Source of the DNA: Branchiostoma floridae | Lineage: Eukaryota > Chordata > Leptocardii > Amphioxiformes > Branchiostomatidae | Reading direction: 5' to 3' | NCBI RefSeq assembly: GCF_000003815.2 | Contig: NC_049985.1 | Coordinates: 13,460,780-13,524,779 of the forward strand | DNA length: 64,000 nucleotides | Translations under genes and position numbers: made by a program | The notes under the pieces: model-generated | The model's database searches: none | Told to the model about the DNA's origin: nothing | Seen by the model: the letters and a program-made list of their open reading frames with translations, nothing else | Part shown: piece by piece, positions 40,590 through 43,500 of the stretch | Layout of the letters: each line of letters opens with the position of its first letter | How positions within the stretch are numbered: position 1 is the stretch's first letter

Positions 40590-43500
40590 GTAACATTCTA
40601 GGGTCACTTTTACTCTGCCAGCGAATCACAATCCTACAACAGTCCAAGACTTAATATACAGTCTATTCATGTTACAACTATACTTGATGTGACCTTTTAC
40701 CCTTGCCATAAGGATTACTGTTTATTTGGCTAATATGTCAACAGTGAAATTAATTAATTCAAGAATCTATTTTTAGCTTCAAAATGGCAAGAAGCTGACA
40801 TCTACAGTCTTTAGATTTAACTTAAAAGATTTCCAGAATTCACCCACTTGAAGGCAATAGCCATTCTTATATTTCAACTGAGAACAGACAATAACCCGAA
40901 TAATGAGTGAAAATCTGTATCTGTATCTGCATCTCTATAGCCAGTATAACTGCCCATCAGTGCAACACACCAGCTTCGCAAAATGAGTGAAGGTGTCGCC
41001 AAAATCATGTTTTTAAAAGACTATTCTATTTTCGTGTTGCAGACCCCGATGATGTTTACCGACATGAGGACGAACGACGTTCTGGTGGCGCTCAAGTTCC
41101 CCTCCAACTCTCCCATCATCCACCTCACCGCCAACACGCACCCCCACGTCCCCATCCCCGCTGTCACCACGGTAACCGCTAACCTCCTCTTCTCCATCAA
41201 CAAGTGGAACGCGAGCGCTGGTACGACAACTTCTTTTTTTCACTCACAATTATAACTGCATTAGTGCGGAATTTTCACATCTTTGTGCATGAACAGTTAG
41301 AATTGGCCAAGAAAACCGTACAGTAGAACTGTGAAACCTATGGTCAATATAGACAGGAAATAGAAAAAATTTATAAATCATTGAAACATGTATATTGGAC
41401 AAGTGATCTCTATATAGAGGTGGTCACAGGTTTAACTGTACCTCCATTAGGATCCTGACAGCATGTAAATATGCCACATTTGACAAGGAAAAGGTTACCA
41501 ATCAATTGATCACTGCGGTATTGCTTGCAGAAGTTAATTGCATGACTTTATCATGCAATTAAAAAAGGTTTGTTATGTTTTATTTACTCTGTTTTATTAC
41601 AGTTCTTTTTTATGAGAACAGTCTTGTTCTTCTTTGTCTCTTCTTATTTCTTTTGCACACCACACCTGATTTCACTTATTGCAATCCAGTTTGCTTTCTT
41701 TTGCACTTCTCACAAGTGAAGTAAATATCTAATCAAATATAATCAGTCAAATTCCCAGCTTGAGGGACACAGTTTATATTCCTATTTTCTGTAGATTACA
41801 AAATTGATTTCTTCTTCCTCATACATGTAGTATAGGTTGAAATTCTGTCAGTACCAATAGCAGGAAGAATGAAAATGGCCAGTTGTTCAGATTTATACTG
41901 ACACTTTTCTAAATCACACAGTTTGTTGATTTGAAACAGTAGTATATTTGCACTTATTTCCTTCAAAACCACAATATGATAGTCATACTCTGAAAACCAA
42001 ATATACTTTATACAGACTACTCTACAGGGTAACATGTTAATGTTGTGGTGTAGCACGGTAATGGCTTGTTCTGTGTTATTGCAGCCACCTTTAGAGGAGC
42101 ACCAGGGTACTCTCTGGAGCCCAACCAGTATGCCATAGAGGTGGACCCCCTCATCTGTAAGTGGTGTTTGGAGTGTGTAGAGATTTGCAAGCTAGAAATC
42201 ATTAGTAGTGAAACAATTCTAGTGATAGCTTTTATTGTATTGAGGGTTTTGATATGATTCAGGACATGTTTCTAATGGGTGCCGGTGGAATATAGGGCTG
42301 TCTACACACCTTCTAATACTTTCTGTCCTGTTAAAAATCGTTGTTGCTGTCCCTGACTCTTTGTCTTTGCAGGACTCTGGTTCCACCTGTCTGTTTCAGA
42401 CTGAACTGCAGCTTTGAATGCTGCAGTATCAACCATGTTTGCATGCAGAGTTCATTACAAAAATTAATGAAAAAATATTGCATTCTTAAAAAAACATTTG
42501 AGTGGACCAGACACAAATTGGAATTTTTTTATAGACCACAATGTGTACACATTGTGACAAATACTTATATACAGATATATCAATAGTTTATTATGCAAAA
42601 AAAAGTTGTTCAAAAGTGACAGCCATTAAGCTGAATTGATGCCAGGACATTATGAGTTAAAATCATAGGGTAGAACAAAGAAATTATGTCAGTTAAAATA
42701 TCATGTATACAGCATAACATTGAAGTTTATATACATAATGACATGAACATGCGTTACACGCAGTGGCGGGGACGGGGGTTCACCGGCGCCAAGTGAACGA
42801 CATCCTGGACCAGAGTATCCAGCTGAACTCCTGCTGCTGCAGGCTCACCTCCGACAACAGGCACATCCTCATCTGTGGCTTCTGGGACAAGAGCTTCAGG
42901 ATATACTCCACTGACTCAGGTGAGCTTCAGGATATACTCCACTGACTCAGGTGAGCTTCAGGATAAACTCCACTGACTCAGGTGAGCTTCAGGATATACT
43001 CCACTGACTCAGGTGAGCTTCAGGATAAACTCCACTGACTCAGGTGAGCTTCAGGATATACTCCACTGACTCAGGTGAGCTTCAGGATATACTCCACTGA
43101 CTCAGGTGAGCTTCAGGATATACTCCACTGACTCAGGTGAGCTTCAGGATAAACTCCACTGACTCAGGTGAGCTTCAGGATAAACTCCACTGACTCAGGT
43201 GAGCTTCAGGATATACTCCACTGACTCAGGTGAGCTTCAGGATATACTCCACTGACTCAGGTGAGCTTCAGGATATACTCCACTGACTCAGGTGAGCTTC
43301 AGGATATACTCCACTGACTCAGGTGAGCTTCAGGATAAACTCCACTGACTCAGGTGAGCTTCAGGATAAACTCCACTGACTCAGGTGAGCTTCAGGATAT
43401 ACTCCACTGACTCAGGTACAGGATTCTCAGGGGAGCATAGAATTTTACAGTCCATGCAAAAGAGACATTTACAATATCTAAATCATTTGCATGAATGGGA

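Follow-up and report, generated by a model that had tools for sequence, protein, structure and literature searches.

The window (the whole stretch of 64,000 nucleotides of Branchiostoma floridae DNA analysed here) carries part of an NBEA/LRBA-type gene and, at a distance from it, a Mab-21 type open reading frame:

36678 to 44646, + strand: 13 consecutive exons of the NBEA/LRBA-type gene (BEACH domain, start of the WD40 propeller)
46381-46383, + strand: TAG stop codon of the NBEA/LRBA-type gene
5492-6715, minus strand: Mab-21 type open reading frame (Pfam 1.2e-44)

The 13 exons join into one open frame, with boundaries that were picked among the GT/AG candidates preserving that frame; past 44646 the boundaries are only partly settled. 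With BEACH and WD40 strings as tblastn queries, the + strand matches can be grouped as 16 exon pieces between 36712 and 46380, one weak minus-strand match (E 0.89) and five matches to units of the array described below having been set aside. In Pfam, the joined protein finds Beach (6.2e-120) and NBCH_WD40, the neurobeachin beta-propeller (1.1e-18). In comparison with solved PDB domains, the BEACH part finds LRBA (2.1e-160) and neurobeachin (2.8e-154), and two joined WD40 exons find WD40 proteins in general among the best 60 of 221 matches. A preliminary description had named the gene Nbea, which places it correctly in the NBEA/LRBA clade but is too narrow, because the BEACH domain obtains a slightly higher score against LRBA than against NBEA. 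In vertebrates, MAB21L genes are paired with NBEA/LRBA genes, and the position of the amphioxus Mab-21 type reading frame, upstream of the NBEA/LRBA-type exons and in opposite orientation, recalls this pairing. A literature search (Branchiostoma, neurobeachin, Mab21) yielded 20 papers, none of them on the locus as judged by title and the start of the abstract.

Within this gene the 3' boundary of a WD40 exon is repeated in tandem (a slash in the donor sequences marks the exon-intron boundary):

42764 to 42919, + strand: WD40 exon, the last 29 bases of which are the exon part of unit 1
42891 to 43417, + strand: 31-bp minisatellite of 17.0 copies (29 exon bases plus GT) with one variable base
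42920 to 42921, + strand: GT of donor 1, CAG/GTGAGC, the sole array donor that preserves the reading frame
42943 to 42945, + strand: in-frame TGA in unit 2, taken in by every array donor past the first
42951 to 43386, + strand: donors 2 to 16, presumed decoys, an identical CAG/GTGAGC each 31 bp
43416 to 43423, + strand: donor 17, CAG/GTACAG, weak; from the array edges, the putative ancestral intron start
43637 to 43649, minus strand: inverted 13-nt exact match to the exon end with its GT (CACTGACTCAGGT), within the intron that holds the array
43955 to 44134, + strand: next exon, continuing the protein in frame from donor 1

Tandem Repeats Finder reports a period of 31, 17.0 copies, 98% matches and a score of 1012 at 42891-43417. 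Compared unit by unit, all 17 copies read GAGCTTCAGGATA[T/A]ACTCCACTGACTCAGGT and end at the 3' side in ACTCAGGT; at position 14, 11 copies have T and 6 have A, and all other positions are invariant. The preliminary description was therefore right that 17 tandem 31-bp copies are present and that what has been amplified is 29 exon bases plus the GT. The order of T and A along the units (TTATATTTAATTTTAAT) has no significant higher-order pattern, the longest repeated mixed run of 6 units being matched in 1072 of 5000 shuffles. Both edges of the array are sharp, the left flank (...GGGACAA) and the right flank (ACAGGA...) being off-period. As coding sequence the array is ruled out by the TGA in unit 2.

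When 30 boundaries of the gene (15 donors and 15 acceptors, a few at approximate positions) were scanned for repeats, long repeated copies were found at this donor alone (16 matches); of the remaining boundaries, four show one or two matches of 11-15 nt and the other 25 show none. When one mismatch is allowed, the 13-mer CACTGACTCAGGT is present 18 times in the window (17 times in the array and once inverted outside it) versus 0.08 expected. The inverted copy (E 0.041) may be of chance origin. The exact 31-mer of the array has 0 matches in viral_contigs.

The GT sites of the array begin at 42920+31n. Sixteen of the 17 stand in CAG/GTGAGC, and the seventeenth, at 43416-43417, is followed by ACAG instead of GAGC. 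The preliminary description had spoken of 16 near-identical donors in a row and had taken every later donor to be as good as the first; the row of 16 stands, but these donors are in fact identical across 30 bases around each, and the equality extends to donors 2-16 and not to the additional donor 17, which scores 0.35 versus 6.98. These and all other donor scores rest on a vertebrate-like matrix. With this matrix, CAG/GTGAGC is the strongest of the 15 donors of the gene that were scored, the other 14 ranging from 0.2 to 5.0. A GTACAG donor fits the gene model also elsewhere, at the exon ending at 38636 (score 0.2). Sites scoring at least 6.98 on either strand of the whole window number 16 in this array, 11 in a second array at 63477-63962, 0 in a third at 49043-49374, and 5 elsewhere.

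Read-through past donor 1 gives SGELQDILH and then the stop at 42943-42945. Since the GT sites from 42951 onward lie downstream of this TGA, each later array donor puts it into the mRNA, a point on which the reading frame agrees with the preliminary description. Because several introns lie downstream, transcripts spliced at a later donor would be expected to undergo nonsense-mediated decay. It should also be noted that in donors 1-16 the GAGC after the GT is the start of the unit that follows. In unit 1 this GAGC lies in the exon, in the codons AAG AGC (K-S), and the present donor thus consists of exon sequence from +3 to +6.

Tandem repeats across exon-intron boundaries are known from amphioxus. 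According to a section of PMC3087553, the globin genes, and earlier Adh3, carry such repeats, which were named mirages; their units measure 10-160 bp, many with AG/GT signals, their length varies, with somatic instability at Adh3, and RT-PCR suggests regular splicing. Portions of PMC3902484 describe similar repeats in PGBD5, cite Adh and troponin C, and state that the published amphioxus repeats do not disturb regular splicing. The present array is best filed as a further amphioxus mirage: it is a tandem repeat across an exon-intron boundary of a protein-coding gene, its unit of 31 bp lies inside the reported range, and AG/GT splice signals stand in 17 of 17 units, which is reported for many mirages and not for all.

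One close likeness is to the Adh3 mirages of B. floridae and B. lanceolatum, short-unit minisatellites (10-72 bp) across an exon-intron boundary (PMC3087553, in part); compared by description only, they differ in the gene, and the present array has 17 units with 16 identical donors. The BflGb6 and BflGb9 globin mirages are likewise tandem duplications at an exon boundary with splice signals in many units. However, their units are 150-160 bp long with 81-100% identity, and BflGb6 has 6 and 3 units in its two haplotypes and involves an acceptor boundary (PMC3087553, in part). A homogenised centre with diverged edge units is reported for BflGb6. The lancelet PGBD5 repeats overlap exons 3 and 4 and differ in that their copies are imperfect; according to the assembly there are 2 or 7 copies of 60 bp and 3 or 6 of 108 bp (PMC3902484, in part). 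New splice-site copies also arise in intron gain by tandem duplication (potato RdRp, PMC4974935; Rogers model as given in PMC3087553; both in part), whereas the present locus gives no sign of an added intron; the intron already there has been lengthened and its donor probably rebuilt. What the locus adds to the known mirages seems to be the gene, the many identical donors, and the idea of donor building, of which no statement was found in the portions of PMC3087553 and PMC3902484, the literature search having been aimed not solely at this point.

We consider it likely that the array is a mirage seeded by a 31-bp duplication that built a new strong donor, and that donor 1 is used in most transcripts. 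The seed would have been a tandem duplication of 31 bp comprising the exon end and its GT, by which the old GT would have been fused to the exon bases GAGC to give a near-consensus GTGAGC at the true exon end, with the old weak donor GTACAG displaced to the far edge of the array. Slippage or unequal exchange would then have expanded the array to 17 copies. Tolerance of the first duplication would be explained because the copy at the true exon end gained a better donor at once, this new upstream donor outcompeting the old one; the later copies would be intronic decoys, and transcripts using them would meet the early TGA and be expected to be removed by nonsense-mediated decay. With exactly 17.0 copies and sharp edges, the simplest reading takes the right flank for the old intron (ACAGGATTC...) and the seed for a duplication of GAGC...GGT without microhomology, which would make CAG/GTACAG the old donor. 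Thus the ancestral donor was presumably the weak last one, and the duplication probably built the strongest donor of the gene. Two observations count against this reading: edge units 1 and 17 show no extra divergence compared with the central units, and the right flank may be a decayed 18th unit, in which case GTACAG would not be ancestral.

Such decay is at the heart of the alternative that the locus is a mirage whose original donor already read GTGAGC, the first duplication having occurred via GAGC microhomology and the far edge having later decayed to GTACAG. GAGC indeed occurs in the exon as well as behind the donor GT, and the right flank weakly resembles a decayed unit (CTCAGGGGAGC). This resemblance is mild, however: a score at least equal to it is reached by 71 of 5000 shuffles and by 154 of 12540 40-mers from the window. 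Moreover, a 4-base microhomology should give 17 plus 4/31 copies and the array ends at exactly 17.0; we therefore regard this alternative as unlikely. That the copy number is an artefact of assembly appears very improbable. The assembly is gapped, the window containing N runs of 286, 100, and 100 bases, but none of the three lies in or near the array, the T/A variant is irregular along the units, and short-read assembly usually collapses such arrays.

How the first of sixteen identical donors would be selected is a separate question, and RNA structure was considered as the selector. In the predictions, donor 1 does not stand apart from donors 2-16 in either accessibility or opening energy, and by both measures the most open site is donor 17: local accessibility (11 nt) is equally low for donors 1-16 (0.0002-0.003) and 0.03-0.05 for donor 17, and the energy to free the donor is 6.2-7.1 kcal/mol for donors 1-16 versus 2.9 for donor 17, or 6.5-7.1 versus 4.2 kcal/mol with the whole intron included. 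Among the 15 donors of the gene, donor 1 is predicted to belong to the four with the lowest accessibility, and in growing transcripts freeing it is predicted to cost 6.2-9.0 kcal/mol without a distinct early window. Compared with its shuffles, the array shows no better folding (z +1.44; 90 of 100 shuffles at least as good), nor is self-pairing of the unit unusual (equalled or exceeded in 207 of 300 shuffled units). RNA structure was therefore rejected as the selector of donor 1. The inverted 13-nt copy could base-pair with an array donor in the RNA; as a mask of the decoys it was rejected, because its pairing is predicted to be incomplete and divided among several donors, and so cannot hide all later ones.

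Exon definition, to which the preliminary description had ascribed the choice of the first donor, finds no support in exon length: via donor 2 the exon would measure 187 nt (156+31) compared with 72-180 nt for the 13 modelled exons, which does not clearly exclude donor 2. The choice could be due to transcription order, or to U1 committing early to the first site. In experiments with competing equal donors, the intron-proximal site is often favoured. Such a preference would select the wrong donor here and, like the predicted accessibility, counts against predominant use of donor 1.

Two further explanations turn on how the donors are used. By recursive splicing, CAG/GTGAGC would act as acceptor and then as donor, and the array would be removed stepwise. 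An AG directly precedes the strong donor at each unit junction, and the unit contains CTGAC, which by eye is like a branch site. In unit 5, however, pyrimidines make up 0.50-0.56 of the sequence ahead of the three AGs, which is near the bottom of the range for the 15 acceptors of the gene (0.50-0.88), two of which, one being that of the array exon itself, are also at 0.50; steps of 31 nt are, furthermore, shorter than usual introns. We regard recursive splicing as extremely improbable. The array could also be a copy-number switch, several donors being used, long-allele transcripts with the TGA being destroyed, and copy number thus setting the output of the gene. Such a switch is suggested by the 15 later identical donors and the seventeenth, all behind the TGA, and by the predicted absence of any structural advantage of donor 1. 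We nevertheless consider it improbable: the mirages in print are said in portions of PMC3087553 and PMC3902484 to be spliced regularly, and the sequence contains no sign of regulated use, so that the switch acting through nonsense-mediated decay proposed in the preliminary description finds no direct support.

Other repeats and reading frames lie downstream of the gene:

49043-49374: 43-bp minisatellite, tiled by 4 consecutive Rfam mir-2060 precursor matches
54807-55089: 18-bp array, 15.5 copies of CAACCAGTCCCGGCCAAA, possibly coding
57883-60263, + strand: leucine-rich repeat and immunoglobulin open reading frames (Pfam LRR_8, I-set)
60568-62629, + strand: reverse transcriptase pieces in two overlapping open reading frames
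63477-63962: 51-bp array, 9.5 copies

Among the mir-2060 matches, those at 49027-49121 and 49293-49378 are above the Rfam gathering score (54.5 bits) and two further ones in the array fall below it (53.9 and 47.5 bits); the hairpin contains many non-standard pairs. The first description of mir-2060 was from B. floridae. Since by eye the Rfam consensus also consists of a direct repeat, about 43 nt long, mir-2060 may be a piece of a minisatellite and not an ordinary miRNA gene. The B. belcheri bbe-miR-2060c-3p, given in part of PMC5650284 as gttcagcaccaaggacaggc, is by eye close to the unit at 49043-49374. Indirectly, the mir-2060 matches and this likeness point to a Branchiostoma host. This array was rejected as a second mirage of the NBEA/LRBA-type gene, being about 2.7 kb past the stop codon and matching mir-2060. 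Most units of the 51-bp array hold two donor-like sites (of the types CAG/GTRAGT and CAG/GTAAGA) and a pyrimidine stretch ending in AG, and 11 of its sites score at least as high as the donors of the NBEA/LRBA-type array; this array is perhaps a further mirage, belonging to a gene outside the window. The first of the leucine-rich repeat and immunoglobulin frames crosses a 100-N gap (57909-58008), the second of the reverse transcriptase frames has RVT_1 below the curated cut-off (18.4 versus 29.6 bits), and the frame at 54504-55016, which overlaps the 18-bp array, has no Pfam match.

As a kind of array, the NBEA/LRBA-type repeat is ordinary for amphioxus. A bolder idea, which we offer as a long shot, is that the hypermutable donor ladder serves as a copy-number rheostat for the NBEA/LRBA-type fraction escaping nonsense-mediated decay, and that 5' mirages survive only where a better upstream donor has been built. 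If this were true, the number of equal donors would vary between individuals, perhaps between cells, and would set the fraction of transcripts that escapes. The donor-building idea, for its part, predicts for all 5' mirages that the first donor is at least as strong as the far-edge donor. And in one natural intron there are sixteen identical donors of which only the first keeps the frame: because they are identical over 30 bases, position is nearly isolated as the variable in donor choice, which makes this intron an unusually clean natural test of how a donor is chosen.
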